From contig JAGQYE010000042.1 of the NCBI GenBank assembly GCA_020436225.1, positions 1-64,000 of the forward strand: 64,000 nt of DNA. Reading direction: 5' to 3'. Shown here one piece after another: positions 45,914-64,000 of the stretch (position 1 is the stretch's first letter; each line of letters begins with the position of its first letter). The stretch comes from Bacteroidota bacterium. Lineage in GTDB: Bacteria > Bacteroidota > Bacteroidia > Chitinophagales > JADIYW01. Below the pieces are notes generated by a model. The model was not told the origin of the DNA and did no database searches. It worked only from the letters and a program-made list of their open reading frames with translations. A program made the position numbers and the translations under genes.

Positions 45914-47407
45914 ATGCGACTAAAATTTTGTTGGATAATTGTTGTGCTTCTTTTGCTGTTTGGCTGCACAAAAGATGTTATAAAAGTTTCTGAGAAACTA
46001 TTGTATGCCAGAAAAGGAACAAATGCAGGAATATACGACCAACAAGGCAGATACGTCATCTTGCGAGGTGTAAATTATAATGTTTTAGGTGATTATTGGC
46101 AAGCAAATCCAAGCATTCCAACTACTAAATCTTTCGATGAAGAAGACTTTAAAATGATGGCTTCTTATGGTATTAATTGCGTCCGATTAATTTTTAGTTG
46201 GAGCCAATTAGAACCGCAACGCGGGCAATATAATCAAGCATATATCAACCGAATTATACATGCCATCGAGATTGCGGATAAGTATAATATCTATGTTTTA
46301 TTGGATATGCATCAAGATGCCTTTACAAAATTTATCTTTTCATCTGCAAACGAAAACTGTACAAATCCTTTAAATGGTTGGGATGGCGCACCTCAATGGG
46401 CAGTTTTTACAGATGATAAACCAACGTGTATGTCAAGCTCAAATGGAGTTGGAGGAAGAGAAAGTAGCGTGGCAGTTATACATGCTTGGCAAAATTTCTG
46501 GGATAATAAAAATGGTATTCAAGACGCTTGTATCCAAGCATGGAAAACCTTAGTAAAACAAACGGCAAAGTACGATAATGTGGTTGGTTACGATTTATTG
46601 AATGAGCCGAGTTTAGGTTATAAACCTATCAATGAAGAATCGTATAAATTAGGTAAATTTTATCGACAAACAATCAATGTCATTCGCAATACAGAAAAAG
46701 AAGTAAACGCTAACCAACATATTATTTTCTTTGAGATGAGCGTTACTTGGAATGGGCAAGCAATTCCTTTTATTCCAATGCCTGATTTTACCAATGAAGA
46801 AAATATCATCTTTGCACCACATCATTATTTTGAGTCAATTTCCAATTTATTTACAATAGAACAAGGATTGGATTTGTTGTATGGTCTTTCAAAATTATAT
46901 CAAACAACAACGTTTATCGGAGAGTTTGGTTTCTTTGGAAATCCAAGTGATGATGTCAATAAATTCAAACGTTTTGCTAAAAAAGAAGATGCCAATTTTA
47001 CTTCTTCTACATGGTGGCAATGGGCACAGGCACCCGGCGATCCACATGCAATCAGCTGGGACGGAACGCAATACGAACAAACATCCATGCACTTGATTGA
47101 GCTAAATAAGAATGCACAATTTACAGGCAATAAAAATGAATTCTATCTCGATGTATTAAGTAGAACAAGACCCAATGCGATCTGTGGCAAACCAATAAAA
47201 TTGGTTTCTAATCCTGATGATGGAACAATGGAATTACAAGCAAATACAAATTCTCCGGGCATTACAACACTTTGGATTCCTAATAGATTCGGTGTACCCA
47301 AATTTTCAGGTTCAAATAGTAAATTAGAAAAATTAGATGAAGTAGAAGGAGGTTATATAGCAACAATTAATGCAGAAGGAACGTATATTATAAAGGTTAA
47401 CTATTGA
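45914..47407 (+). CDS. GH5-family glycosidase lipoprotein (endoglycoceramidase-like)
   Basis: The 497-residue protein has an SPII signal ending FGC (C18). It then shows a TIM-barrel glycosidase pattern: LRGVNYNVLG (about 50-59), LLDMHQDAF (about 129-137), DLLNEPS with acid/base E231, and FIGEFGF with nucleophile E337. This resembles GH5 endoglycoceramidases and related cellulase-clan enzymes. A C-terminal beta-sandwich (about 400-497) follows. The substrate is probably a glycan or glycolipid, but it cannot be fixed from sequence. The gene has its own terminator. Confidence 0.88.
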   Translation: MRLKFCWIIVVLLLLFGCTKDVIKVSEKLLYARKGTNAGIYDQQGRYVILRGVNYNVLGDYWQANPSIPTTKSFDEEDFKMMASYGINCVRLIFSWSQLEPQRGQYNQAYINRIIHAIEIADKYNIYVLLDMHQDAFTKFIFSSANENCTNPLNGWDGAPQWAVFTDDKPTCMSSSNGVGGRESSVAVIHAWQNFWDNKNGIQDACIQAWKTLVKQTAKYDNVVGYDLLNEPSLGYKPINEESYKLGKFYRQTINVIRNTEKEVNANQHIIFFEMSVTWNGQAIPFIPMPDFTNEENIIFAPHHYFESISNLFTIEQGLDLLYGLSKLYQTTTFIGEFGFFGNPSDDVNKFKRFAKKEDANFTSSTWWQWAQAPGDPHAISWDGTQYEQTSMHLIELNKNAQFTGNKNEFYLDVLSRTRPNAICGKPIKLVSNPDDGTMELQANTNSPGITTLWIPNRFGVPKFSGSNSKLEKLDEVEGGYIATINAEGTYIIKVNY

Positions 47408-47542: not shown

Positions 47543-48052
47543 ATGAAAAAATATCTACATATCATCATTTTTTTTGGCTTAATGACAGCGCAAGTTGTCT
47601 TAGCACAAGATGATCAATCATCACCAAATAATAAAATTGCACCTACTGTTACAGGATATTATCAATCCATAAACTTGGATGAGGATACACCTTGTACGTG
47701 CGATACAAAAACACAACGTACACATGACTTAGCAAAAGGACTAAGACCTTATGATGTAATTAATTACAAATTGCATGCATATAAATTTACTTTTGGTAGC
47801 TCAACAGTTGGAGTTTCTAAATTATTCAAAGCATTTGAGAACGATAAATCAGTTTATAAGGTTTCCATGAAAGAATGGGATTCATTTATGTTGTTAACTG
47901 ATGATACTTTTAATGTTACTTCGTTTGAAAGTGCTGCAAAATCTGTATTTGCAACATTCGAACCTATAGATGTAGAATCTTTCCTTCAAAGAAAGAATAC
48001 TACTTCTTATAATGAGTATGTAAAGTATAAACAAGAATCCTCAAAAAAATAA
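47543..48052 (+). CDS. Small secreted protein with a CTC motif, cassette copy 1
   Basis: The 169-residue protein has a SPI signal (MKKYLHIIIFFGLMTAQVVLA, cut near residue 21). The mature part contains GYYQSINLDED, then CTC at 52-54, and a conserved block GVSKLFKAFENDKS, VYKVSMKEW and SFMLLTDDTF. The predicted order strand-helix-strand-strand-helix-strand after residue 80 suggests a ferredoxin-like (HMA-like) fold, but this is inference. A close homologue lies at 59978-60469. Both are followed at once by a giant secreted protein gene, here after a 32-base gap. I do not recognise a named family. Confidence 0.8.
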   Translation: MKKYLHIIIFFGLMTAQVVLAQDDQSSPNNKIAPTVTGYYQSINLDEDTPCTCDTKTQRTHDLAKGLRPYDVINYKLHAYKFTFGSSTVGVSKLFKAFENDKSVYKVSMKEWDSFMLLTDDTFNVTSFESAAKSVFATFEPIDVESFLQRKNTTSYNEYVKYKQESSKK

Positions 48053-48084
48053 TTCGATTTAAAACCAATTAATATTTTTTGCGG

Positions 48085-51000
48085 ATGAAATCTAATTACA
48101 AATATTTTTCATTTTTTCTTTTACTCCTTCTTTTAGGATGTTCGTCAAATAGTTTTGCGCAGAAAACATTGCGATTAAGAATCATAAGCATTAGTGCCAA
48201 TAATACTGCCGGAACAGACTGTGATGCCAATTGCATAGGTACATCAGATAACCAGTTAGACTGGGTTTTTGATATTGATGATGGAGGAACAGATGTAGAT
48301 GAAGATTGTTATAACCTGAGTGATGACCAAAATAGCAACACTACTTATCCCAATTATGTTGTTTGGGATAGAAGCTATGATTTTGCTTGTCAATGGCCAA
48401 GTGGAGCGATAGATTTTAACGTAGAAGGTTGGGATCAAGATTGTGCAGATGCTTGTATAGGAGGAGGTTTCGGAAATGTAGTCAGCGATTTAGCCTGCAC
48501 TGTTAATGTAAATCGGGCATATCCTGCTAATAATGCAACAAGTGGAACCTACGGACCATATACAGCAACGTGCAATTATAATAGTGGATTTAATGGAGGT
48601 TGGAATTGTGCCGGAACGATAACAGTCACATATCAATGGGAAGTTTCCGGCAGTTATCGCTCACAAACGAATGATAACTTTATTTGTGGTGCTTATAATA
48701 TGGGAACAGTGGGCGCAGGAGGAACTATAAATAGGAATAATTTTACAAATATAAACTATACAACGGAAGATATTTGTGCTTCGAATGAACCAAATAATGA
48801 TTCAGGAGATGAAACAGTTTGGATGAAATTTACAACGAGTGCAGACCCGGGAACCGAAGTAACAGTGGATGTAGATGCAATAGGTGGTTCGGGTACAGGT
48901 GGGACATTATGTATTGCAGGAGGTACAGTTTTTGGTTGGACAAGAGTATATGAAGGTCCGACATCTTTATCAGGTTGTCCATTTACGTATACTACTAATC
49001 CTTTTACACAAATATCTCAAGTGGGTTCAGTTGCCTCTTTAGGAACGGATAATAGTAAAATTGAAATTAGCTGTCCGAAACCTAATCAAACGTATTATGT
49101 ACAAGTAGAAATGCAAGGTATAGCTACTTGTGATATGGGTCGATTTAATTTATCAGTTTCTGATAATGGTGTTCACGCTGGTCCTGATTATATTTGTATG
49201 CCTGCAAGTTCAACTACTCCTGGGGTAAATGGTTTTATGGGAACATTAAATAGTTCTTATGACCCACGAACTTCAACAGGCTCGCCAACATCGTGGGATG
49301 GAGGAGATTATGATTTAGCTATTTTTAATCAATCTACAGATTGTGCATCAGAAAGTACAGGTTGTTGTAGTGAACCAGATCATACAACAATTTTATCTGG
49401 CTTAAATAAAACCGTGTGGTATCGTTTTAGAACGCCGGCACCAGACTATCCGTCTGCTCCACCTTTAGCACAATTAGCACATACGTATAAAGTGCTAGTT
49501 GAAAGACTTGGATCTTCAGGAACTTTAACCTATCCTGCTGTCTATGTTTATGAAGAATCTGCAGTTACTACTAGAAATTGTCCAAACAATAACGGAGATT
49601 ATGCTAACCTTACTTTCTTAGAACGAGATGAAATAGACCCATTGAATATAGTAAATGGTGGCGATGCAGAAGTTGAACGTCTATGCCTAAAACCAAATAC
49701 AAACTATTATATTCAAGTTGATCCGGTGGGCACAACGAATAGAGTTGATTTTAATATTAAAGTTGTTAAAGACCAATTCCGACCATCTGATATGATTTGT
49801 GATGCAGTCGATTTAGGCTATATAACCACTAACGGACTACAGAATGGACCAACAACAGGAGTTAATTGGTCAAATAATGGACCTTCTTCAAAATTGGGTA
49901 CTGCAAAATTCTTTGGATTGCCACATACTAATAAATGTACTTCTGGAGAACCTGGAGAACCGGGTGCATCACCGGGTGGCCCAAACCCAAATTCAGGCTC
50001 ACATACGGCTACTGTTTGGTATAAATTTACTACAGGCAGTAATGTTCCACCGGATTGGATTTATTGGTATGAGGATGATAATACTTTAAACCATGCTAAT
50101 AGAGGAACGGTTTGTATTGGTACACTTTTCCAAAGTCGTGTTACTTTCTATAAAAATGCTACCTCTTATGCTTGTCCTGTTGGTGGCAATTTAGTAGAAG
50201 CTTCTGAAATGAATATTCCTGGAGACTTATGTGATGCAACAACAGGTATAGGTTTTGGAGCACCATGCTATGCTGATATGTTCCGATTAAAATGTCCGGA
50301 ACCCAATACAACCTATTATGTTCAAGTGAAAGATGCAGGTGCCATTACACCTTGTTACGAAGGTCAATGGAGTTTCGACAATGGATCACATAAAATTACA
50401 TCGGCACCGACCTTAGGAGGTGCGCCTTCAAATGATAGTATATGTGGTGCTATTAATTTAGGAACAGTTCCAAATGGAGGTCAAATCAATAATGGCGTTA
50501 TTTATGATAATTTCTGTGCTACTCCGGATTTGTCTTGGAGAGCAGATTTTACTCAATCTTTAGATGCAGATGTTTGGTTTAGATTTAGACCGCCTGCTTC
50601 AGGTTCTGTCCGTATTACGGCACAATCAGCACCACCTGGTTCTCCGGGGATAGATGATGATCTAGATATACAAGCAGCAATTTGGGAACCTATTTTAGGA
50701 GATGGAACAGATGCGCATTGTTCAGATCCTCGTTTCTTATGGACGCCAATTATTTCGCAAGACCATGGAATTCAAGAAGCCACCGAGGCTGGTGTAGTTA
50801 CAGCTTTCTATTATGATATTTATAATACTTGTGGAAATAGTTTACTTTGTAATGAAGGAAATAGTTTAATTGCCACTTGCTTAGACCCGAATAAATATTA
50901 TTATTTACAGATTGATGGAGGAAGTTATGCCACTTGTGATTTAATAGACGCGGGCGATTGTGTTATGGGATATTTCAGACTACAAGTTACAGATGCCGGT

Positions 51001-54000
51001 TTAGGCTTATACAATAATGCAAGTCCGGGCGATGTGGGCTCACCTTATACAACTTTAGGAATGCCAAATGCTACTTTGAAACATGATGAACCTTGTTTTG
51101 CTCAACCGCTTACGATGAATAATGCATCTACAAGCTATGGTTCGTTGACTTGGGTAAATATGACCAATAGATGTGCAACTTCAATAAATGACCCAATTCC
51201 GGCAGAATGGAATGCAAAGAATTCATCAACGGATAAAACAGTTTGGGCAAGATTTGTTGCACCGCCAAGCGGTAAAGTTAAAATACGTGCAGAAAATCGT
51301 TCTCAATTAAAAGGAGATGCAGATTATCATGAAAATATAAATATTCAGTTAGCCTTATATCAAACTACAAATTGTTATGATAAATATCGACTTGTAGAAG
51401 TTGGCAATGGCAATGGATTTGATGGCGGAGGTGTAGAAATAGATCCATTAAATGATGACGATTATACAGGGATTTGCGTACCATGTACTGGTACGTGTGG
51501 TTTTGATGAATATTATGTAGGTCGTTGTTTAATTCCGGGACAAACCTATTACATCATGATAGATGGAGAAGCAGGATATACGTGCGCTGCAGATGTGGAA
51601 GATGTTGAAGGAGATTTTAGAATTTCTGTACAAGAATTAAATGGAATTCCGGCATCAACTAACGATTCTATATGTGATGCCTATTTAATGACACCAATCT
51701 CTAATACTGTTGGTGCAGTCTATAATTCACCTATCGCATTTAATAATGAATGTGCTTCTATTGATATGTCGTATGAAGGTAACGGAAAAATTGCAGACGA
51801 AATTGAGGGAGCTGTGTTTGATATTGACGTTGAACACACATTGTGGTTTAAATTCGTTGCACCTTCAACAGGAAAAGTAAAAATTGAAGCGTTGGAAGAT
51901 GGTGGAATTGATGACATTGATTTAGGTATTGCAATTTATGATATTCCAACACAAAATTGTGCAGATATACAAACAAACGGATTCAAATTTGATGACGATT
52001 ATGACCCAGCAGTATTTGGAATTGCCAATTCTGATGATGAAGAAATCACAGTTTCTTGCTTAGTTCCGGGAAGAACGTATTGGGTACAAGTAGATGGTGA
52101 AAGCAACATGACTACATGTGGTCCTGCATTTTCCGGAACAGATTGTAAAACTGGTCAATTTAGAATGAGAATAACTACTTTAGCCTCAGACCCAACTTAT
52201 GCTTCGAATGTTAACTATTCAAGTCCTGCAGGATCTTCAGCTGGAGGAAATGATATGTTTTGCGAAGCACATCAAGTAAGAAATGCCGGAGGAACCTATA
52301 ATCCGGTTAATCAAAATACATATTTAAACCCTGGCGAGACCATTACATTTAATCATAATAATAGATGTGCAACTGCAGAACAGAATGAACCGGAAGCTAA
52401 TGGATGGGATTTGAATCCTTTTGATTCAGACTCCGACCCGACAGTATGGTACACCTTCAACACTGGTCCGGCTTTAGGTCCATTACGTCCGGGTGATATT
52501 ACGATTAGAGTTACAAATCCTTCAGGTACATGTTTTGATCCGGATGTAGATTTATATGAATATAATGGTACGTTTACTTCAAGTGCATGCGATGCACAAG
52601 CAGTAACACATGCACAGTTTAATTCATTAACACGAATCGGAGAAGGAAAAGTATTTAATGTTTTAAAACCAAGAGAAGAAGAAATAAAAATCTCTTGTCC
52701 AAAACCTAACACACGTTACTTTTTGCGAATTTTAGGATCAAGTGCTTGTCCTTTATTTGGTTCTGACCAAGGTGATTTTGATGTTTCTATCTCAATGAGT
52801 AGTGTTAATATAAATTTCCAAACCAATGATAATATTTGTGGAGCATCAAATGTAGGAAGTGGAACATTAAATTCAGGTTCAACTCTGTCACTAACTAATC
52901 AAAATAATATTTGCGCAACTCAAGAATTTAATGAACCAAATACTTCTCAAGGATGTGTTCAAAATGAACCATGCTATGATGAAACAATGTGGCATAAATT
53001 TACGACAGGTCCAAATCCTGGCGCAGTAGAAGTTGAGATAACTTCACTCGTAGGAATTGGTGGTTTCTTTACTGTTCCATCTGTAACAGTATATAAATAT
53101 GTTCCTTCCGGAGATCCATGTTCTTCAACACCATTTTCAAATATTGTTGCTTTAGATGATGATATGGGATTTGCAACATTATTGGGTGGAATAATTGATC
53201 CAACAGCTAAAGTTACCCTAAATTGTGTTTCTCCAAATACAACATATTATATTCAAGTAGATGGAGCAGATGTAAGTTTATTCGGCTTTACTTTCCCTGG
53301 CTTTACAGATAATTATTATTATAATGTTGATGTAAGAGATTTGGGAAGTGGCACAGGAAGACCGGCAAATGATAATCTGGCATTTGCAATTCCGGCAGAC
53401 GATGTAGCTCCTATTGATGGTATGCTTCCGGCAAGTGGTTCACTAACAGTATCAGGACATAACAGATGTGCTACGTGCGAAAATGGAGAAAATGGAGATT
53501 ATTGTGGAAATAATACTACTGACCATACAGCTGCTTTTGGAGCAGAAGATGAAACTGTTTGGTATTATTTTACAACACCGGCAACTCCGGGTACAACTAC
53601 TATAACTGTAGCTGATGATCCTGCAGTAAGCGGAACGTTTAGTCCTAATTTTACTTTATATTACAACAATGGCTCTTATCCACTCTTTAGAAATACAAGT
53701 GGCATTAGTAACAATCTAATTCAAGAAGGTTCAACAAAGAGTTCATTATACGGTACTGCATCGGGAAGCTATACATGTTTATTACCGAATACGAAATATT
53801 ATTTACAAATTGATGGAAACGATAATGTTCCCGGAACAGATGACCAAAATAATTTCTTAGTTACCATTACAGATGATGGTTCCGGTACACCTGGCCCAAC
53901 ATCTCCAACTAATTATGATTTAATTTGCTCTTCAGAAAATTTAACTATTCCAACCAATGGAACAAACGGAAACTTAACTAGAACCAATAAATGTGCTTGG

Positions 54001-56961
54001 GAAGAAGCGGGTGAGCCGAATACAAGCAACAATATGGGAAATACCGGAGATGATGTTACTTCAAATGATTATGACGAAACAGTATGGTTCACATTTGTTC
54101 CGCCGACTGATGGCGATATTAACCTTACTTTGGAACCAACAAGTGGCATTACCGGAGGAATCAATTATGTATTATACAAGATGCCGAACACATCAACAAT
54201 TTCTTGTAGTGGTACACCTGCAGATATTCCAAATTGGAGTCAATTAACAGAAATTGCGAGTGGATCAGGGTTAGCATTAAATACGGTAGGTACTACTGAT
54301 AGAATAAGTGAAACTTGGCCATGCCTAAGTACAGGAACGCGATATTATTTGCAAGTAGATGGCAATGACTGGCCGGCAACTGCTGATGTAGGTAACTTTA
54401 ATATACAATTATCACATACATCAAAAGCTACACCTGTAAATGATGATATATGTGGAATTGGTTCAACAGCAAATACTGGAAATTTTGGAACATTCTCTTC
54501 TTCAAATACTGTAACAGCAACCAATCAAGATAATAGATGTGCAACACAAGAAGTAAATGAACCAAATATTAATGGGCCGATGAATGATATAACAGATGCT
54601 TCTTATGACCATACACTTTGGTATAAATTTACGGCAAGCAATACAGATGGAACTTATACTGTTTCGGTTACTAATGTTGGTGGAGATGCAATTAATGGCT
54701 CAATAGTAGTGTATAGAGAAGATGGCACGATTTGTCCAACTACAAACTTTTCTAATTTAGTAGAAGTTAAATCATCACCAACCACAGGTTCTGTTTCTAA
54801 TAATGAATCTTTGACATTAGAATGTTGGGAAATAGAAGAAGGAAGAACATATTATGTTCAAGTTCAAGGCTGGGACGGCATTGGAGGTGGAGATGTTGGA
54901 GATAACTTTAACGTTTCCGTTCAATTTAATAGCGGCACGACGAATCCGGCAGATAATATTTGTACTGCACCAATGGTTACTGTCGGAGGTGGAAATGTAT
55001 CAGCAGATAATCGATGTGCAACTACTCAACCAAACGAACCAAATATTTCGCCATCACCTCAATCACCTACAAATGGAGATGATTACGACGAAACGCTTTG
55101 GTATTCATTTGTTGCGCCACCATCAGGTGAAGTACGCTTAAATACTTCTTCTTATAGTCCTTCTACTTTGACTTTAAATGCGGATCTATATAGCGTGCCT
55201 GCAGGTTATAATTGTTCAGTGTCCGGATTTTCAGGATTGACTAGAGATGATAATACGACCTTCTTGACATCAATTTCTAATTCTTGGGATTTAAGATGTT
55301 TAATTCCAGGCAATACCTATTACATCCGATTTGATGGAAACGATGGTGTATTAAGTGTTCCACCGGATAGAGGAACATGGAATTTTAACTTAACTAATTT
55401 AGATAATACGAATATTTATCCTACAGTAGTTAACGATGAACCTTGTGGTGCTATTGATGTTACACAGTTTGTACGCACACAAGCACAAGGACCTTGTTCA
55501 AGTGATAATCAATATTACAATAACAACTACAGTATTTTAAATGCAGCTACTGATGTTGATGAAGCAACGCGTTCTGTTCAAGCATTTGGATGTAACGGAG
55601 AGTCAAATTGCAACGATTATTGGTTCAAATTTACTGTGCCATTAGATGCTACAGGAATTCGAATTCAAGGAAATGACGAATATCCTATCGGCGCTATAAC
55701 TAATAACTCTCACCAGCATATTGGTATATATAGAGCAACCGGAGGTTGTGGAGGCACTTTACAACAAATTAATTGTGACGATGGTGGATTTGGAAATGAT
55801 GTTGATTTCTCTTTAGCAGCGTATCCGGGAGAAACTTTATACGTTCAAGTATTCGACGAGAATGCACCGGCATCTCCTACAAATCCAACATTTGGGTTCT
55901 GTATTTCGGTAGATTGCCCACCAAAACAAAATTGTGCTCCAAATAATATTGTTTATGGACAAGCACAATGCTGGAACTTAAATACAAATGGTGTTGATAT
56001 ATCACCTCAATATTATGATTGTTTGCCTGGTAGTAATAATTCAGTTAACTACGTATCATTTACAACAGACTGCGATGGAACGCCTGTTGATACAGTAACT
56101 GTTGTTTTCTCGGTTACTGAAATAGGTTGTGGCTCAACTGCCATGTCGATGTTCTTAGATCAAACACCATGCGCGTCTCCGTTAGGACAGTATGATGATA
56201 TCTTAATTAACTGCGCCGTATTTGAAGAAGTTACGGGTGGAACAACTGCTACAAACTTCTCTTCAACTTTTATATTACCTGCATGTGCCACTTATGTAAT
56301 GCAAATTATAGGTGATGAAAATACGCCGGATTGTGCTTCTGCAGGTCAAGTATTGATTCTAAAATCTACCTTACCACCAACACAAGTATTACCGGTAGAA
56401 TTGACGAGCTTTACAGGTTATAATGATGGAGATGTGAACATTCTAAATTGGACGACCGCTTCAGAATCTAATTCGTTGAAATTTGAAGTGGAGAAGAGTT
56501 TAGATGCTATCAACTTTACATATATCGGTGAACGTCCTGCAGCAGGGAACAGCAGTGTTCCATTGAGTTATACATTGACAGACGAACATCCTGTTTTGGG
56601 ATATAATTATTACAGATTAAAAATTATCGACCAAGATGGAACGTATGAATATTCAAAGATTATTCCAATAAAAGTAACAGAAGTTGGAACCAATAACACA
56701 GATGGAATTGTTCAAGTATATCCTAATCCAACTAATAATCAATTGAATATTGTGTACCAAGCAAGCAAAGATCAAAAATTAAGCTTGGATGTTTATAATG
56801 TGATTGGACAAACAATGCAATCAACAATTTATGAGATAAATGAAGGCATCCAAACAATCACGATAGATGTACACAATTATGCAAAAGGCTTATATATCTT
56901 GGATTTGAAGAATACATCAAATGGAAATAGATATCAAACTAAGTTTATAAAAGACGAATAA
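48085..56961 (+). CDS. Giant secreted repeat protein with a T9SS C-terminal sorting domain, cassette copy 1
   Basis: The 2,958-residue protein starts at the ATG at 48085; the open frame also includes an upstream TTG. After a signal ending SFAQ comes an Asp/Cys-rich domain (about 28-195; DIDDGGTDVDEDC, GWDQDCADAC). About 13 repeats of 160-220 residues follow, beginning near residues 195, 365, 564, 780, 998, 1190, 1386, 1579, 1760, 1942, 2117, 2287 and 2447. Each has NDxIC, CAT-xxNEPN, DETVWYKF and YYxQVDG blocks, resembling PPC-type beta-sandwiches. An Fn3-like part (about 2768-2866) and a type A T9SS tail (from about 2872) close it. It is probably a surface adhesin or fibre; no enzyme domain is seen. 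Confidence 0.88.
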   Translation: MKSNYKYFSFFLLLLLLGCSSNSFAQKTLRLRIISISANNTAGTDCDANCIGTSDNQLDWVFDIDDGGTDVDEDCYNLSDDQNSNTTYPNYVVWDRSYDFACQWPSGAIDFNVEGWDQDCADACIGGGFGNVVSDLACTVNVNRAYPANNATSGTYGPYTATCNYNSGFNGGWNCAGTITVTYQWEVSGSYRSQTNDNFICGAYNMGTVGAGGTINRNNFTNINYTTEDICASNEPNNDSGDETVWMKFTTSADPGTEVTVDVDAIGGSGTGGTLCIAGGTVFGWTRVYEGPTSLSGCPFTYTTNPFTQISQVGSVASLGTDNSKIEISCPKPNQTYYVQVEMQGIATCDMGRFNLSVSDNGVHAGPDYICMPASSTTPGVNGFMGTLNSSYDPRTSTGSPTSWDGGDYDLAIFNQSTDCASESTGCCSEPDHTTILSGLNKTVWYRFRTPAPDYPSAPPLAQLAHTYKVLVERLGSSGTLTYPAVYVYEESAVTTRNCPNNNGDYANLTFLERDEIDPLNIVNGGDAEVERLCLKPNTNYYIQVDPVGTTNRVDFNIKVVKDQFRPSDMICDAVDLGYITTNGLQNGPTTGVNWSNNGPSSKLGTAKFFGLPHTNKCTSGEPGEPGASPGGPNPNSGSHTATVWYKFTTGSNVPPDWIYWYEDDNTLNHANRGTVCIGTLFQSRVTFYKNATSYACPVGGNLVEASEMNIPGDLCDATTGIGFGAPCYADMFRLKCPEPNTTYYVQVKDAGAITPCYEGQWSFDNGSHKITSAPTLGGAPSNDSICGAINLGTVPNGGQINNGVIYDNFCATPDLSWRADFTQSLDADVWFRFRPPASGSVRITAQSAPPGSPGIDDDLDIQAAIWEPILGDGTDAHCSDPRFLWTPIISQDHGIQEATEAGVVTAFYYDIYNTCGNSLLCNEGNSLIATCLDPNKYYYLQIDGGSYATCDLIDAGDCVMGYFRLQVTDAGLGLYNNASPGDVGSPYTTLGMPNATLKHDEPCFAQPLTMNNASTSYGSLTWVNMTNRCATSINDPIPAEWNAKNSSTDKTVWARFVAPPSGKVKIRAENRSQLKGDADYHENINIQLALYQTTNCYDKYRLVEVGNGNGFDGGGVEIDPLNDDDYTGICVPCTGTCGFDEYYVGRCLIPGQTYYIMIDGEAGYTCAADVEDVEGDFRISVQELNGIPASTNDSICDAYLMTPISNTVGAVYNSPIAFNNECASIDMSYEGNGKIADEIEGAVFDIDVEHTLWFKFVAPSTGKVKIEALEDGGIDDIDLGIAIYDIPTQNCADIQTNGFKFDDDYDPAVFGIANSDDEEITVSCLVPGRTYWVQVDGESNMTTCGPAFSGTDCKTGQFRMRITTLASDPTYASNVNYSSPAGSSAGGNDMFCEAHQVRNAGGTYNPVNQNTYLNPGETITFNHNNRCATAEQNEPEANGWDLNPFDSDSDPTVWYTFNTGPALGPLRPGDITIRVTNPSGTCFDPDVDLYEYNGTFTSSACDAQAVTHAQFNSLTRIGEGKVFNVLKPREEEIKISCPKPNTRYFLRILGSSACPLFGSDQGDFDVSISMSSVNINFQTNDNICGASNVGSGTLNSGSTLSLTNQNNICATQEFNEPNTSQGCVQNEPCYDETMWHKFTTGPNPGAVEVEITSLVGIGGFFTVPSVTVYKYVPSGDPCSSTPFSNIVALDDDMGFATLLGGIIDPTAKVTLNCVSPNTTYYIQVDGADVSLFGFTFPGFTDNYYYNVDVRDLGSGTGRPANDNLAFAIPADDVAPIDGMLPASGSLTVSGHNRCATCENGENGDYCGNNTTDHTAAFGAEDETVWYYFTTPATPGTTTITVADDPAVSGTFSPNFTLYYNNGSYPLFRNTSGISNNLIQEGSTKSSLYGTASGSYTCLLPNTKYYLQIDGNDNVPGTDDQNNFLVTITDDGSGTPGPTSPTNYDLICSSENLTIPTNGTNGNLTRTNKCAWEEAGEPNTSNNMGNTGDDVTSNDYDETVWFTFVPPTDGDINLTLEPTSGITGGINYVLYKMPNTSTISCSGTPADIPNWSQLTEIASGSGLALNTVGTTDRISETWPCLSTGTRYYLQVDGNDWPATADVGNFNIQLSHTSKATPVNDDICGIGSTANTGNFGTFSSSNTVTATNQDNRCATQEVNEPNINGPMNDITDASYDHTLWYKFTASNTDGTYTVSVTNVGGDAINGSIVVYREDGTICPTTNFSNLVEVKSSPTTGSVSNNESLTLECWEIEEGRTYYVQVQGWDGIGGGDVGDNFNVSVQFNSGTTNPADNICTAPMVTVGGGNVSADNRCATTQPNEPNISPSPQSPTNGDDYDETLWYSFVAPPSGEVRLNTSSYSPSTLTLNADLYSVPAGYNCSVSGFSGLTRDDNTTFLTSISNSWDLRCLIPGNTYYIRFDGNDGVLSVPPDRGTWNFNLTNLDNTNIYPTVVNDEPCGAIDVTQFVRTQAQGPCSSDNQYYNNNYSILNAATDVDEATRSVQAFGCNGESNCNDYWFKFTVPLDATGIRIQGNDEYPIGAITNNSHQHIGIYRATGGCGGTLQQINCDDGGFGNDVDFSLAAYPGETLYVQVFDENAPASPTNPTFGFCISVDCPPKQNCAPNNIVYGQAQCWNLNTNGVDISPQYYDCLPGSNNSVNYVSFTTDCDGTPVDTVTVVFSVTEIGCGSTAMSMFLDQTPCASPLGQYDDILINCAVFEEVTGGTTATNFSSTFILPACATYVMQIIGDENTPDCASAGQVLILKSTLPPTQVLPVELTSFTGYNDGDVNILNWTTASESNSLKFEVEKSLDAINFTYIGERPAAGNSSVPLSYTLTDEHPVLGYNYYRLKIIDQDGTYEYSKIIPIKVTEVGTNNTDGIVQVYPNPTNNQLNIVYQASKDQKLSLDVYNVIGQTMQSTIYEINEGIQTITIDVHNYAKGLYILDLKNTSNGNRYQTKFIKDE

Positions 56962-56983
56962 AATTGAATTGAAATGGATATTA

Positions 56984-57016
56984 AAATCTCGGTAATTTTT
57001 ACCGAGATTTTTTTTT
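56984..57016. terminator. Bidirectional terminator between the giant gene and the TMTC-like gene
   Basis: A perfect 12-bp stem (56984-56995 with 56999-57010) has a 3-base loop and a T-run on the right. It overlaps the stop codon of the minus-strand gene at 57015. Confidence 0.88.
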
Positions 57017-58853
57017 ATTGTAAGAATGTTGGAACGCCGTTTTTGTTCATTCCTTTTTGAACTGCTTTATCAAAAAATTGTTTGGCGCGAGAAGTATCTT
57101 TTTTTATCAAAAATAAATAGCCTAAATTTTCATAAGGCGCAAATAAATCTTGTTTCGATTTTATTAGATTTTTGTTGTATTGTAAAACGCTATCTTCTCC
57201 TTTTGTTTCATAAATTAAAGTCGATATTTTATTGACGATAGCATTGTTTGAATTATCTTTTTCCCAAATCTTGTTGTATAAATATAAGGCAGAATCTTTT
57301 TGGTTTTGTTCGTAATATAAATCGCCAATAAGCTCAGTTGCATCTGTTAAAGTGGTGTCATTTTGCTGCGCAAGTTGATATTGATGTAAGGCTTTTTGAA
57401 TTTTTCCGGATTTATAATAAATAATACCTTCAAAGATATGACAAACAGAATTTTCGGGATAAATGGCATTTGCTTTTTGGATATGATAAAGTGCTTTGTT
57501 TAAGTAATCAGCATTTATTGTTGCATCATATTTTTCTTTGTATGTCATTGCAGCGATGCGTTGTCCTTCATAAGATTGCTCTAATTGTGGTGCATCATTT
57601 TCTACTAAGGTAATGCTGTCTTTCCAAACCTCAGCACGTTGATAGGAAAATATTGACCAGATAACCACAATTGCAAAACTCACTTGAAGTACACGATTCA
57701 TATTGTCATTAAAAACGCCAAAAAGTATAGCTACCACACAAATACAAAAACCTAATGAACCTATAAATGCATATCTATCGGCGATGATGCCTGCAACAGG
57801 AACAATAAAATTTAAACAATACAACAAGAAAATCAACAATGAAATAAAGCCAAATGCAAGCAACTTATTTCGCTTAAAATAATAAATTATTATTCCAAGA
57901 ATAGTGCATCCTAAAAGAAGACAAGCAATTGCTTGCCAACTAAAAAATGGAAATAACTCAACTTGATTAAATCCAAAATAATACCAATAACCATAAGGTA
58001 CAGCTAAAAACTTTAGATAATAATAAAACGTTACTGCGGTTGCAGCAATCTTATCAAGTAAAAAGGTAGTGTTAAAAAATGGATTTTCTGTATATGAAAC
58101 ATACGAAATGATTTGTTCGTTTGTTGGCTTTGGAATCAGTATGTCTGGCAATGTTGAATGAAAAAATGTTTGCAGTATATGTAATAAAATGAAAATAAAA
58201 ATTGCGTGTTTTATTTTTGATTTTCCATAAAAGAAAATTAAAAGAAATGGAATAAAAAACATAAATCCAACAGCATCGTATTTGCTGAGAATAGCACAAA
58301 CAAACAAGAAGGAACTAAGCAAATATCCGACTATAATATTTGACTTATTTTGATTTTGTATCATTAAAATTGGAATGCAAGAAAGAATTCCAAAAAGCAT
58401 ACTCAAAATATTATCTCGGCTTTTTAAATTACAAATTACGTTTGTATGAATTGGATGAACTAAAAATAAAATGGTAACAATTAATGCAATCAGTTTCTTG
58501 TTTTTCTCTAAAGGTAATGCACACATAAAAGCATAAATACTGACACAAAGAAGATAATACAACACAACATTTACAATGTGTGAAATCGGTGCGCTGGGTT
58601 CTCCAACAACATAATTTTCTATTGCATAAGAAAGAATTAAAAACGGACGATAATCGCTTTTGTTAAATGGAGTTTTAAAAATATGCAATAATCCTTCTAT
58701 GCCTTGACTTCGTTGCGGCAAATCAGTATTGATAAAATAATCATCCAAGGCATAGTCATAAGAAAAAGTTTTGGCATATAACAATAATACCAAACCTAGC
58801 AATAATAAACATACACCAAATTTATTCTCGTAGATTTTTGCCGGAAATTTCAT
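57015..58853 (-). CDS. TMTC-like membrane glycosyltransferase with C-terminal TPRs
   Basis: The 612-residue protein has about 10-12 membrane segments up to residue 400. Early loop motifs are YALDDYFIN and, near 135-150, HPIHTNVICNLKSRDN, which match the DD and HPxHTE/GR motifs of GT-C O-mannosyltransferases of the TMTC/DUF1736 group. The last 200 residues are TPR repeats (for example NAIYPENSVCHIFEGIIYYK). This architecture suggests dolichol- or polyprenyl-linked sugar transfer to secreted proteins. It lies between the two secreted-protein cassettes, but the link is only by position. Confidence 0.75.
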   Translation of the reverse strand: MKFPAKIYENKFGVCLLLLGLVLLLYAKTFSYDYALDDYFINTDLPQRSQGIEGLLHIFKTPFNKSDYRPFLILSYAIENYVVGEPSAPISHIVNVVLYYLLCVSIYAFMCALPLEKNKKLIALIVTILFLVHPIHTNVICNLKSRDNILSMLFGILSCIPILMIQNQNKSNIIVGYLLSSFLFVCAILSKYDAVGFMFFIPFLLIFFYGKSKIKHAIFIFILLHILQTFFHSTLPDILIPKPTNEQIISYVSYTENPFFNTTFLLDKIAATAVTFYYYLKFLAVPYGYWYYFGFNQVELFPFFSWQAIACLLLGCTILGIIIYYFKRNKLLAFGFISLLIFLLYCLNFIVPVAGIIADRYAFIGSLGFCICVVAILFGVFNDNMNRVLQVSFAIVVIWSIFSYQRAEVWKDSITLVENDAPQLEQSYEGQRIAAMTYKEKYDATINADYLNKALYHIQKANAIYPENSVCHIFEGIIYYKSGKIQKALHQYQLAQQNDTTLTDATELIGDLYYEQNQKDSALYLYNKIWEKDNSNNAIVNKISTLIYETKGEDSVLQYNKNLIKSKQDLFAPYENLGYLFLIKKDTSRAKQFFDKAVQKGMNKNGVPTFLQ

Positions 58854-58921
58854 TAAGTAATGATACTAATTTCTACCTAATTAGTAATAAGTTTCTTCTT
58901 AATTTTTTGGAATAAAGCCAT

Positions 58922-58973
58922 GGTTCATGTCCACACGAAAAAGGTTACTTATTGGTTTAAGAAGACACTAAAC
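58922..58973. repeat. Dispersed short repeat, copy D (inverted pair)
   Basis: GGTTCATGTCCACACGAAA (58922-58940) faces GTTTAAGAAGACACTAAAC (58955-58973). The first half matches copies A and B; the reverse complement of the second, GTTTAGTGTCTTC, matches the left half of copy A. It lies about 50 kb from the other three copies, between the TMTC-like and ferritin genes. Confidence 0.55.
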
Positions 58974-59042
58974 AAAGCTATAGTATGAAGCTTTATAGAC
59001 GATAAAATCTATAAATTACAAACAAAATACAGATTAGAATGT

Positions 59043-59050
59043 TACCTTTG
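59043..59050 (+). promoter_or_regulatory. -7 promoter element of the ferritin gene
   Basis: TACCTTTG fits TAnnTTTG and lies 17 bases before the ATG at 59068. No -33 box was found at usual spacing. The short leader leaves little room for a separate operator. Confidence 0.6.
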
Positions 59051-59067
59051 AAGAGAAAATATGTAAT

Positions 59068-59595
59068 ATGATTATTCCAAAGAAAGTAGAAAAAACACTA
59101 AACGCTCATTTAGAATTAGAAGCCGATGCCTTTTTTAGTTACCTTGCTGTGGCAGCTTGGTGCGAGAAAGAAGGTATGGAAGGCTGTGCTAAGTTTTTCC
59201 GTAAACAATCAGATGAAGAACATGTTCATTTTATGAAATTCTTTGACTATATCAACGAAGTTGGTGGACATGCCATTGTGCCTTCTGTGAAACAACCAAA
59301 AATTGATTTTAAAGATATCTTAGAGATATGCCAACACGCACTAAATGGTGAAAAGAAGGTGACTAAATCTATCTATAATGTTTTGAAAGTTACCCAACAA
59401 GAAGAAGATCACGCAACAGAAGAATTTCTTCAATTTTTTGTGATGGAACAACGCGAGGAAGAAGTGCAGTTTAATAGAATTATAGACAAGATAAAACTCA
59501 TTGGTAAAGGTCCGCAAAGTTTATATTACATCGATAAAGAATTTGAAAAATTAGTTGCTTCAAAAGGAAAAGATGGCGGAGAAGGAAATGAATAA
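59068..59595 (+). CDS. ftnA: Non-heme ferritin
   Basis: The 175-residue four-helix ferritin has ferroxidase-site residues in the expected spacing: E18 (ELEAD), E51 and H54 (EEHVH), and later QQEEDHATEEF and EQREEEVQF supplying the remaining carboxylates. It oxidises Fe2+ and stores iron in the cytoplasm. The start MIIPKKVEKTLNAH is typical. It has its own promoter and terminator and is probably monocistronic. Confidence 0.95.
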   Translation: MIIPKKVEKTLNAHLELEADAFFSYLAVAAWCEKEGMEGCAKFFRKQSDEEHVHFMKFFDYINEVGGHAIVPSVKQPKIDFKDILEICQHALNGEKKVTKSIYNVLKVTQQEEDHATEEFLQFFVMEQREEEVQFNRIIDKIKLIGKGPQSLYYIDKEFEKLVASKGKDGGEGNE

Positions 59596-59620
59596 TAAAC
59601 TTTCTTGCTCCTTTTTTTTT
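59578..59620 (+). terminator. Terminator overlapping the end of the ferritin gene
   Basis: GGAGAAGGAAA (59578-59588) pairs with TTTCTTGCTCC (59601-59611) with one mismatch and one wobble, across a 12-base loop. About nine Ts follow. The left arm lies inside the last codons of the ferritin gene. Confidence 0.7.
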
Positions 59621-59977
59621 GCATATCATTTCATATTTTTATCTGCCAATATTTAATTTCCTTTTTCTCTATTAAAGTAATTCCAAGACGTAGATTTCCC
59701 ATTGATTTCTTGAATCCCTTGTCATTTTTATAAATGACAAATAGCAATTTTGTTAATGTACATTATATTAATATTCACTCAGTTAAATATTACTATTATT
59801 CTAACTTATTTAGTACAATTACACTAATTATTTAGATTTTATATAAATAAAGTGTTTTTAATTAAAACCGAAAAATAATTGTGCAAATTTGTAAAATTAA
59901 TGTTAATTTTATTTTTGTTTACTTTAGGTGAAAAACTATTTATTTTAGGAGTAATATTAGAAATAAGTATAAAGATT
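59621..59977. other. AT-rich gap upstream of the second cassette
   Basis: About 360 bases with no convincing gene. A perfect 9-bp hairpin lies at 59719-59740 (TTGTCATTT, loop TTAT, AAATGACAA) without a T-run, so it is not a standard terminator. The frame of the next gene is open from 59879, but that part reads as AT-rich non-coding sequence. The cassette promoter should lie here; no TAnnTTTG box could be chosen. Confidence 0.45.
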
Positions 59978-60469
59978 ATGAAAAAATTTTACAAAGTTAT
60001 TCTAACTTCTTGTTTCTATCTTTCCTTTTGTGCAGGTTTTGCAGAGTCAGGTTATTACCAAAAAATTGATTTAGATTTAAATACTTCTTGTACATGCAAA
60101 GATAAAACAACACGTACGTATGAATTAGCCAAAGCGCTTCAGCCGGAAGATTTTAGCAAGTATAATTTTTATGCATATACTTTCCAATTTCCTGAAAATA
60201 TAAACGGCGTTTCAAAATTATTCAAAGCTTTTGAAAATGATTTGTCTGTGCATAAAATTTCAATGATTGAGTGGAGTTCATTTATGCTTTTAGTTGATGA
60301 TACTTTCGACAAGAATTCTTTTGAAATTGCAGCAAACAAAATCTTTAAAACGATAACACCAATTTCTTACTCCGAATTTTTAAACAAGAAAGTAAGAGAT
60401 AAAACATTGCTGAGTGAATATCTCAATTTAGCAGATAAGCAACAAAATATTATAAATACTAATAAATAA
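59978..60469 (+). CDS. Small secreted protein with a CTC motif, cassette copy 2
   Basis: The ATG at 59978 starts a proper signal peptide (MKKFYKVILTSCFYLSFCAG) and gives 163 residues; the 33 codons open upstream are rejected as leader. The mature protein aligns along its whole length with the 47543 product: GYYQKIDLDLN, CTC, GVSKLFKAFEND, KISMIEW and SFMLLVDDTF are all kept. The giant gene starts 15 bases after its stop codon. Conservation of the CTC pair and of the partner gene suggests a joint function, for example as a chaperone or anchor for the giant protein (inference). Confidence 0.8.
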   Translation: MKKFYKVILTSCFYLSFCAGFAESGYYQKIDLDLNTSCTCKDKTTRTYELAKALQPEDFSKYNFYAYTFQFPENINGVSKLFKAFENDLSVHKISMIEWSSFMLLVDDTFDKNSFEIAANKIFKTITPISYSEFLNKKVRDKTLLSEYLNLADKQQNIINTNK

Positions 60470-60484
60470 GTAAAAAGTAAACCT

Positions 60485-63400
60485 ATGAATACATTTTACA
60501 AAAAGCTATTTCCTTTATTCTTGCTAACACTATTAGCATGCATTTCAAATAATAGTTATGCGCAGAAGAATTTAAAATTAGTTATTACTAAAATTGAAGC
60601 CAGCAATTCGTCGGGAACTGATTGTGATGCGGCATGTTTAGGAGGAGATAATGAAATAGACTGGGTTTTTGATATTGATGATGGTGGTACTGATGTGGAT
60701 GAAGATTGTTATAATCTGTCTGATGATAATAACTCAAATTCTACTACTCCAAACTTTAGTGTATTTAATAGAAATTACGATTTTGCATGCCAATGGCCAT
60801 CAGGAAATATAGATTTTAATGTAGAAGGTTGGGATGAAGATTGTGCTGATGCATGTATTGGCGGAGGATTTGGAAATACTGTGAGTGATTTAGCCTGCAC
60901 TGTAAATGTAAACAAGCCATATCCTTCCAGCACAAACGGAACATATACATATACAGCCACGTGCAATTATGATAAAAACTTTGATGGAACTCCTAATTGT
61001 GGTGGTACTATAACGGTAACTTATCAATGGGTAGTTTCGGGTAGTTGGAAAGCGCAAACCGGTTTTAATTATATATGTGGAGCAGCAGACTTTGGAACAC
61101 TTGCATTAGGAGGAACAAAAACAAATGGAGCTTTTTCCAATTCTGGAGCTAACACAGAAGATATATGTTTTTCTAATGAACCCAATGTAACTACAGATGA
61201 TGAAACTGTTTGGTTCAAATTTACTTCAAGTGCTACGCCGGGCTCTAATATAAATGTAGATGTAACCGCAAGTGGAGCATTATGTGCCGGCTGGGTAAAA
61301 GTCTATGAAGGTCCAAGCTCACTTTCGTGTCCATTAGATTATTCTACAAATCCATTTTCTGTTCTTACACAAGTTGGTTCAGCCGGTGTCGATTTAAGTG
61401 ATGTTGATATCAATTGCCCGAAAGCTAGTCAAGCATATTATGTACAAGTCGAGATGTGTACACCTGGTTTACAGGCTGGCTGCATTGGTACTTGCGATGC
61501 CGGAACTTTAGGTATTGTCATAAAAGATAATGGTGCACCAAGAGCTGCAGATATTTGTTCTCAGGCAATCGACTTAGGTACACTTTCTATTGGTGGAACT
61601 ATCGGAGACGCCGCCGGAAATAATAAATGGAATAACTTCTGTGCAGGTACAACTGGAGATCCAAATCCGAATTGGACTTTATTGGGTGTATCTACAGATC
61701 CTTATCAAACTGTTTGGTTTAAATTCAACACAGGCGCAAGTGGGGCTGGTAGAAATATTTCGATTGATGGATATAATGATCCACATAGTTGGGGTGACCA
61801 AATTGATTTAAAATTAGCTCTATATAGTGGAACTTGTGGAAGCATGACCTTAATCGATAAAGATTATGATACACCTCCATATAGTGAAACATTAGATGTA
61901 ACTTGCTTACAGCCAAATACAGAATATTATATTCTCGTCGGAGGTAGTAATATCGAACCGATCACGGGTTCTTCAAAAGAGGGTTATTTCGGGTTGACTG
62001 TAAAAGATAACGGACCATATCCGGTAAATGACCTTATATGTGATGCCAAAAACATAACTGTTCAAACTAAATATACTTATAATTCTTATTCACTCAATAG
62101 TGAATCAAATGTTAGTGGTACGAACTGCTGGGAACCAAATCCAAATTGGACAGCAGAAGTTTGTCAAGATAACGATGCCGCAGTTTGGTATAAAATTGGG
62201 CAAGTTCCCGGACGAACAATTGTAGTAGATGCTAATGATAATGGAAGCGATGACATCAGTATTCAAATGGCATTGTATTCCTCTACAACCAACGATTGTA
62301 ATGCAACAAAAACTTTAGTTCAAACAGAAAATAACATTTCGTCTAACGATGAAGATGCCTACTTTAATTGCTTAAATCCAAATTTATATTATTGGTTAAT
62401 GGTTGATGGTGGTGATTATGATCCGACATGCTTAGGTATAGCAAAAGCGTTGGAAGAAGGCGATTTCTCATTGCGATTCTGGTTTCCTGAAGAAGGAGAA
62501 ATTACAGGTTGTGCTGCTGAATATTTAGGAGCTGTTCCGGATGGCGGTTCTATAACGATTAAAAATTTATCGAATATTTGTGGAGCAGGTTCAATAACAA
62601 ATTTCCCTGCACCATCTTCCTTCTCTTTTGATAAAGCAGTGGTCTATTCTTTCACAACGCCTCCTGCAGTCGGCTATACAGATGCAAGTGTGAAAATTGA
62701 AGGATTTACTAACCCTTATTATTCTTATTCATCCGGAGGAAATATGGATCCAACTTTCCTTTTAGCAGGTGATGAAATTGATATGCAATTAGCACTCTAT
62801 TCAGATGGTGCTTGTAGTGCATCTCATTTTGTAGTAGGAAGTAATTATGATGTAACTGTAGGAACAAATGTCCGAACGGGTTCAGATGAATCCTTAATCG
62901 TAAATTGTTTAAAACCAAATACAGTATATTATTTAGTAGTAGATGGAAGTCCTCTAAATTCTAATGGTTATTATGATTTAAAAATTTCTGATTATGGAAA
63001 ACACACACCAAACGATTTATTGTGTCAGGCTATCGATTTAACAGCTACCAATTCTGCTCCATGGACAAACTGCAATAGTAATACGGTTGTCCAATTAAAT
63101 AATCAGAATAATTATTGTGCAACAACGACAAACGATATACCGGCATCTTTAGGAATTCGACCACCAAATTGGGGTGAAATTAATAGCCCGGTTTGGTATA
63201 AATTCAAAGCACCAAAATCCGGTAAATTAAAAATAGAAGCCAATAATTCTATTTCAGATGTTGTTCCTCCATTTGATGAACCGGAAATTAGTGCACAGTT
63301 AGCTGTTTTCTTCTTGCCTGGTGGGTATCGAGGTACTTGTGCAGATTTATCTACAGAAAAAGATAGATTGCAATACATAGGTTCCAATCACGATGCCTTA

Positions 63401-64000
63401 TTGCATGATGAAGAATATACTATTGAATGTTTAATGCCGGATTCTATTTATTATTTATTAGTAGATGGAAGTTCTGAAACTCTTTGCCCTACTTGTACAC
63501 GTGGAGAATTTTATTTGAAATTAACAGCCGATCCAAGAGATAGACCGGCAACCAACGATTTACCTTGTGATGCTATCGACTTAGGTACACCTGCAGTTTG
63601 GACAACGCCTGCAATTTATGATACTAGAGTTTCTCCTGCAAGCGGTGCCGGAACATATCCTTCTCCAACGACTGGTTATCCAACAACAACAGGTTTGCAT
63701 AATGGACCAAGAAATAATGCTGGTTCGTGTATGCGAGTGGAAAATAATTTCTGTGCCGGTATAGATAATGAACCGGCTGTAAATGGAGGTAACTTCTTTA
63801 CAGATTTCTCACCAGACGGAACTGTATGGTATAAATTTACTGCACCAAGCACCGGAGAAGTAAAAATAAATACAATCAGCGACCCGGATAGTAGAGGAGA
63901 TTTATTATATACGCAAATTGGCGTTTTCGAAACATCTGACAATACGTGTACTGGAACGATGGTTGGTATCGCAGCAGACGGACTTCCGGATAATTTAGAC
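60485..64000 (+). CDS. Giant secreted repeat protein, cassette copy 2 (truncated by the window edge)
   Basis: From the ATG at 60485 the frame is open to the last base of the window (1,172 codons) with no stop. The signal peptide ends NNSYAQ. The Asp/Cys-rich N-terminal domain is nearly the same as in copy 1, with DIDDGGTDVDEDCYNL, ACQWPSG and FNVEGWDEDCADAC kept. PPC-like repeats follow, with at least six starts (YICGA, DICSQA, DLICDA, GCAAEYLG, DLLCQA, DLPCDA) and VWYKFTAPSTGEVKI near the end. The repeats are more diverged than the N-terminal domain. A T9SS tail is expected beyond the window but is not seen here. Confidence 0.87.
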   Translation, partial: MNTFYKKLFPLFLLTLLACISNNSYAQKNLKLVITKIEASNSSGTDCDAACLGGDNEIDWVFDIDDGGTDVDEDCYNLSDDNNSNSTTPNFSVFNRNYDFACQWPSGNIDFNVEGWDEDCADACIGGGFGNTVSDLACTVNVNKPYPSSTNGTYTYTATCNYDKNFDGTPNCGGTITVTYQWVVSGSWKAQTGFNYICGAADFGTLALGGTKTNGAFSNSGANTEDICFSNEPNVTTDDETVWFKFTSSATPGSNINVDVTASGALCAGWVKVYEGPSSLSCPLDYSTNPFSVLTQVGSAGVDLSDVDINCPKASQAYYVQVEMCTPGLQAGCIGTCDAGTLGIVIKDNGAPRAADICSQAIDLGTLSIGGTIGDAAGNNKWNNFCAGTTGDPNPNWTLLGVSTDPYQTVWFKFNTGASGAGRNISIDGYNDPHSWGDQIDLKLALYSGTCGSMTLIDKDYDTPPYSETLDVTCLQPNTEYYILVGGSNIEPITGSSKEGYFGLTVKDNGPYPVNDLICDAKNITVQTKYTYNSYSLNSESNVSGTNCWEPNPNWTAEVCQDNDAAVWYKIGQVPGRTIVVDANDNGSDDISIQMALYSSTTNDCNATKTLVQTENNISSNDEDAYFNCLNPNLYYWLMVDGGDYDPTCLGIAKALEEGDFSLRFWFPEEGEITGCAAEYLGAVPDGGSITIKNLSNICGAGSITNFPAPSSFSFDKAVVYSFTTPPAVGYTDASVKIEGFTNPYYSYSSGGNMDPTFLLAGDEIDMQLALYSDGACSASHFVVGSNYDVTVGTNVRTGSDESLIVNCLKPNTVYYLVVDGSPLNSNGYYDLKISDYGKHTPNDLLCQAIDLTATNSAPWTNCNSNTVVQLNNQNNYCATTTNDIPASLGIRPPNWGEINSPVWYKFKAPKSGKLKIEANNSISDVVPPFDEPEISAQLAVFFLPGGYRGTCADLSTEKDRLQYIGSNHDALLHDEEYTIECLMPDSIYYLLVDGSSETLCPTCTRGEFYLKLTADPRDRPATNDLPCDAIDLGTPAVWTTPAIYDTRVSPASGAGTYPSPTTGYPTTTGLHNGPRNNAGSCMRVENNFCAGIDNEPAVNGGNFFTDFSPDGTVWYKFTAPSTGEVKINTISDPDSRGDLLYTQIGVFETSDNTCTGTMVGIAADGLPDNLD

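Follow-up and report, generated by a model that had tools for sequence, protein, structure and literature searches.

The window analysed here, a stretch of 64,000 nucleotides of Bacteroidota DNA, contains two pairs of genes on the same strand and in the same order, each made of a small gene for a secreted protein followed by a gene for a giant repeat protein (Table 1). The coordinates of both pairs given in the preliminary description were recovered, with spacings of 32 bp (pair 1) and 15 bp (pair 2) between the small gene and the giant gene. Giant 1 would measure 2960 aa if started at an upstream TTG, and giant 2, which runs beyond the window, is complete on the parent contig C126 (60485-67990, 2501 aa). 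Directly 3′ of giant 2 lies a terminator-like hairpin with a T run (contig 68008-68035), and no terminator was predicted inside either pair, between the small gene and the giant; given that the overall number of predicted sites is not above that in shuffled sequences, these predictions are suggestive only. The search for a conserved Bacteroidota-type promoter motif 5′ of the small genes gave inconsistent results across genomes.

Table 1. Genes and features of the two pairs and of the DNA between them (window coordinates).
Feature	Position	Strand	Description
Small protein 1 gene	47543..48052	+	169 aa; Sec signal peptide
Giant protein 1 gene	48085..56961	+	2958 aa; predicted T9SS type A substrate
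Head of giant 1	48157..48648	+	~aa 25-188; Cys-rich; DIDDGGTDVDEDCYN motif
13 repeats of giant 1	48646..55971	+	galactose-binding-like, GBD_T9SS_assoc type
Type A sorting domain (Por_Secre_tail) of giant 1	56716..56958	+	PF18962, TIGR04183
Predicted intrinsic terminator, pair 1	56983..57011	+	13-pair stem and T run, just 3′ of giant 1
Multi-membrane-segment protein with TPR repeats	57015..58853	-	612 aa; recurrent neighbour of giants
Ferritin gene	59068..59595	+	PF00210, 122 bits; directly 5′ of small 2
Small protein 2 gene	59978..60469	+	163 aa from ATG
Giant protein 2 gene	60485..64000 within window	+	first 1172 of 2501 aa
Head of giant 2	60560..61039	+	75% identical to head 1, 40% to KLAP121 positional orthologue
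Crossover zone in giant 2	61475..61565	+	~aa 330-360; copy-1-type before, locus-2-type after; first-repeat end

Some of the flanking genes are found beside giants elsewhere. A protein of 610-660 aa with many membrane segments and C-terminal TPR repeats, like the one encoded between the two pairs, adjoins giants in four genomes of the genus and in G001 (L024:5486-7324, L025:290-2122, L026:2590-4527, L078:4588-6504, L088:519-2492), and it also occurs near another T9SS gene of the window's genome. By eye it resembles a membrane glycosyltransferase, TPR being the only family matched, and it could modify the giants. Upstream of pair 1 (window 45914-47407) is a gene for a secreted protein of glycoside hydrolase family 5, which is a neighbour in G008 and G006 as well. 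Finally, a beta-barrel-like gene of 270-285 aa with no clear family follows the locus-2 giants, and also the single giant of G006, in four genomes (L003:8052-8864, L026:13690-14517, L075:12307-13152, L082:1117-1974).

The giants share a common architecture: a hydrophobic, signal-peptide-like start (read by eye), a head of ~160 aa and an array of galactose-binding-like repeats, which are ~160-220 aa long across giants and number 11 in giant 2; giant 1 ends with a sorting domain. Both heads are rich in cysteines, nine of which are invariant, and carry the DIDDGGTDVDEDCYN motif; the model of the head (pLDDT 51) is too poor for structural reading. The repeats of giant 1, of about 190 aa each, match Pfam PF23759 with 33.3 bits (cutoff 27), and its sorting domain matches PF18962 with 43.5 bits (cutoff 27) and TIGR04183 with 34.8 bits (cutoff 23). 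The C-terminal region of giant 2 is homologous to this tail (~52% identity over the last 190 residues). Similar T9SS tails are present on many other genes of the window's genome, which also encodes the SprA translocon (TIGR04189, 2420.9 bits, G000:C71). The type A sorting domain and the SprA gene support the T9SS export proposed in the preliminary description and, judged by these signals, the giants are T9SS type A substrates, predicted to be exported to the cell surface.

The small proteins display a CTC (CxC) motif, at residues 51-53 of small 1 and 38-40 of small 2, and this CxC is invariant across all six proteins of the CTC type. They have a Sec-type start without an obvious lipobox; since a sorting domain and a barrel were not seen in them either, a role of the small protein as outer-membrane anchor for the giant is unlikely. 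No Pfam or NCBIfam family was found for these proteins, permissive cutoffs included, and neither small protein of the window gave a match to any family, Pfam HMA (PF00403) included, at E up to 10. The only match by sequence in the PDB, adiponectin (4dou, E 0.0027), was set aside as a chance one, with no stretch passing alone. AlphaFold models of three small sequences predict a β-α-β-β-α-β arrangement over residues 76-142, followed in small 1 by C-terminal helices, and local confidence is good across most of residues 61-169. The top matches of the model in a Foldseek search against the PDB are HMA domains (Ccc2a, 1fvq: probability 1.00, target TM 0.72, E 0.015), and the small protein is predicted to have a ferredoxin/HMA-like fold nearest to HMA domains, bearing in mind that E-values of this size are modest and that the ferredoxin-like fold is common. 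None of the viral fold matches was credible. The HMA-like loop of the CTC-type proteins contains no CXXC and therefore a metal role is unsupported.

By sequence, homologues of the small protein were found at six loci in 5 of the 13 genomes of the family, which is uncultured, all in the window's genus. The possibility, raised in the preliminary description, that such homologues mostly stand without a giant did not hold: at each of the six loci a giant lies directly downstream. The profile of the head detects exactly the same five genomes and is absent from the other eight, an agreement with a chance of 1 in 1287 if kinship is ignored, all five genomes belonging to one genus. No credible homologue of either the small protein or the head was found in the ~300-400 genomes sampled from the order and class. 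The weak matches of the small-protein profile elsewhere in the class were rejected as chance, being out of frame or inside unrelated proteins (ornithine carbamoyltransferase-like, peptidase-like, methyltransferase-like and TPR-like). The earlier proposal that the small protein serves the giant is thus partly supported by gene order and by the co-occurrence of small protein and head, and the small protein may bind the giant.

The preliminary description had also regarded both members as homologous between copies, and the pair as having been kept through duplication of a whole cassette. The first claim is correct for the small proteins (~50% identity, E 3.9e-39), whereas high similarity of the giants is confined to the 5′ ~1 kb: identity is ~62% up to about residue 385, drops to ~25-30% across the repeats, and rises again only in the tail. 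The second claim is contradicted by an abrupt break at about residue 345 in giant 2. This break can be followed by comparison with KLAP121 (G008), where both loci are present. Giant 1 and the first giant of KLAP121 share 87% identity; giant 2 has its positional orthologue in the second one, which bears a different head and goes with a different small partner. From about residue 345 on, giant 2 is mostly 70-96% identical to the second giant of KLAP121, and its body shares ~25-30% with copy 1; over the first 330 residues, instead, identity is ~25-50% to the second giant of KLAP121 versus ~50-90% to giant 1, the head alone giving 40% versus 75%. Likewise, small 2 shares 50% identity with small 1 versus 20%, which is background, with the second small protein of KLAP121. 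A simple tandem duplication was therefore discarded, since close resemblance to copy 1 stops after the small gene and some 345 residues of giant 2. Pair 2 is a chimera: its small gene and the start of its giant, up to about residue 345, are of copy-1 type, and the remainder is an older, different giant body.

The giant of G010 combines the same body (~55-80%) with a head and a small ORF of a third kind. Hence, the small gene and the head change together while the body persists, a joint exchange which suggests that the small protein and the giant may work as a pair. Because the small gene and the head are contiguous, a single recombination suffices to generate the chimera, which is compatible with an interaction of the two proteins and does not demand one. 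In G002 and G005, too, ferritin immediately precedes the small gene, so that the tract moved may consist of ferritin, small gene, head and first repeat; in pair 2, ferritin probably travelled with the small gene and the head. The position of ferritin relative to the small gene shifts among members of the genus, tracing recombination (window 59068-59595, L024:18441-18968, L025:11656-12183, L027:4987-5514).

The comparison was extended to giants bearing repeats of this kind from other genera (G001, G010, G011 and G012) and from G003. A small ORF of 142-199 aa with a signal-peptide-like start lies directly 5′ on the same strand, at a gap of about -14 to +59 bases, in 12 of the 14 family giants whose upstream side is visible; the small proteins of G008b, G010, G011 and G012 measure 142-151 aa. 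By comparison, such an ORF precedes none of 13 further genes with T9SS tails in the window's genome, a contrast to which no p-value is attached, related genomes being non-independent. The two exceptions are giants G001b, which follows a vitamin K-dependent carboxylase-like gene, and G001c, which follows SecG. On contig C90 of G001, the vitamin K-dependent gamma-carboxylase-like gene directly 5′ of a T9SS giant without small partner (L078:1547-3007 and L078:3017-4612, both on the minus strand) matches HTTM with 187.6 bits and the VKGC lumenal domain with 94.4 bits, and stands behind a weak LMF1-like gene. Among the small proteins, the CTC type, the G011/G012 type and the second small protein of KLAP121 show a weak mutual similarity in profile comparisons, which beats 58-60 of 60 shuffles. 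Convincing profile similarity to other small proteins was not obtained for the small ORFs of G010, G003 and G001; those of G003 and G001 (183 aa and 199 aa) have no similarity to other small ORFs. The small proteins may share one fold. Related heads are also found on proteins without a small partner, in G001c, G407 and G640. The G640 protein, from another family, is 1240 aa long with a related head, repeats and an apparent type B tail, and the next gene resembles a PorP/SprF-OmpA fusion (L097:3300-7022 and L097:1932-3296, both on the minus strand). The presence of this head on an apparent type B substrate indicates that related heads may serve both types of T9SS substrate.

Overall, the pairing of small gene and giant gene is real and conserved within a narrow lineage, where the chimera is informative. 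To explain these data, we propose that each pair is a two-gene surface-fibre unit, whose small protein is a dedicated partner predicted to bind the head of the giant; the co-occurrence in its favour is confined to one genus, and we give this reading about an even chance. The giant would use its signal peptide and then cross the outer membrane through the T9SS by means of the type A sorting domain, displaying a chain of 11-13 galactose-binding-like repeats with the head at the N-terminus; provided that the C-terminus is anchored, the head would form the outer tip. The small protein, presumably ferredoxin/HMA-like and without metal site, would be exported by Sec only and would bind the head in the periplasm, where it would act first, either as a chaperone keeping the head export-competent or as a tip cap leaving with the giant. 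By sequence these two roles look alike, and a dedicated periplasmic partner, chaperone or cap, is most likely. Head and small partner would then represent one exchangeable module, the body being more conserved. As a tentative and rather unlikely extension, the pairs could belong to an undescribed, family-wide system, in which a T9SS giant fibre bears an exchangeable co-exported tip (the head plus its HMA-like partner) that is swapped between loci as a unit, like a replaceable tip adhesin.

Alternatively, small and giant could be mere co-transcribed neighbours, with a small protein that is periplasmic or secreted and independent of the giant, and a joint exchange that reflects hitchhiking of adjacent DNA. 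Indeed, as the small gene adjoins the segment encoding the head, one recombination moves both and interaction is not required; one contiguous tract accounts for the chimera, ferritin seems to have moved as well, and G001b and G001c do without a small partner. However, a small ORF is kept directly 5′ of giants that differ in body and head across three genera, even as the flanking genes change, and no comparable ORF precedes the 13 other T9SS genes. We consider this explanation unlikely, and keep to a dedicated partner of the head.

The rates of evolution bear on a further possibility, namely that the small protein sits at the tip as a secreted adhesin or as a subunit that binds ligands, fast-evolving by contact with the host or the environment, with the giant as its stalk. 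In close copy-1 pairs, dN of the small gene is ~2-3 times that of the giant body, and it is the head and the small partner that vary while the body is conserved. Nevertheless, dN/dS (NG86) is ~0.13-0.26 for the small gene versus ~0.06-0.09 for the giant body; these figures are rough, synonymous sites being near saturation, yet they stay well below 1 and give no sign of positive selection. Purifying selection acts on the small gene. In addition, the small protein has no T9SS sorting domain and would need to be co-exported, and an adhesive role appears distinctly unlikely. A redox helper, whose CxC forms or rearranges the disulphides of the Cys-rich head, would fit the invariant CxC of the six CTC-type proteins and the nine invariant cysteines of the head; yet cysteine is missing from the mature part of the small proteins in G010, G011 and G012, where the heads are Cys-rich as well, and the HMA-like loop is devoid of CXXC, so that this role is very unlikely. 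The idea of a mixed disulphide is weakened likewise, other small proteins having no cysteines. That the variable N-terminal head is a polymorphic toxin and the small protein its periplasmic immunity protein, which would explain why the two vary together as toxin/immunity modules do, is highly improbable: no toxin domain was found in Pfam and no match in PADLOC, related heads occur without a small partner on the G001c, G407 and G640 proteins, and the small gene is upstream of the giant while immunity genes usually sit downstream of toxin genes.

A T9SS surface giant with a dedicated partner remains our preferred reading, and the mechanism proposed for it is plausible. To our knowledge, how proteins of ~300 kDa stay competent for T9SS export is not settled, and small protein plus head, if the reading is true, would offer a simple two-protein system open to testing. 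The chimera, in turn, illustrates a route by which surface fibres may change their tip and keep the stalk.

The layout of a small gene upstream of a T9SS giant was not found described in the open-access literature, and the components resemble known ones to different extents. The small protein recalls HMA domains and copper chaperones (Ccc2a, Atx1) in its predicted β-α-β-β-α-β ferredoxin-like fold; it differs from them in having neither a Pfam HMA match nor a CXXC metal loop, and its domain is preceded by a signal peptide and an additional CxC segment. The giants have the repeat type of GBD_T9SS_assoc (PF23759) proteins, and are distinguished by the length of the arrays (11-13 copies) and by the distinct Cys-rich head in front of them. 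Giant 1 shares with T9SS type A substrates a sorting domain of that type, scoring over the curated cutoffs, in a genome that encodes SprA; the hydrophobic start of the giants, read by eye, would be a signal peptide. We know of no gene-specific small secreted partner encoded upstream of a type A substrate. In giant 1, only the type A model was matched among NCBIfam and Pfam, with no type B sorting domain (TIGR04131). No PorP/SprF-like shuttle was found directly downstream of the giants: there is no barrel gene after giant 1, and the 270-aa barrel-like gene after giant 2 was rejected as such a shuttle, having only a sub-cutoff OMP_b-brl match. Type A substrates reportedly rely on the general shuttle PorV, while type B substrates such as SprB often have PorP/SprF-like shuttles encoded adjacent to them and matched to the C-terminal sorting domain, the SprB-type shuttle gene lying directly downstream of the substrate (PMC12618676). 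Like SprB/SprF, the pairs described here combine a huge adhesin-like T9SS substrate with a putative dedicated partner; in SprB/SprF, however, this partner is a downstream shuttle matched to the C-terminus, whereas in the present pairs a small soluble protein takes its place, with a gene that lies upstream and a link to the head at the N-terminus, which, if true, would make the small protein a second kind of substrate-specific helper.
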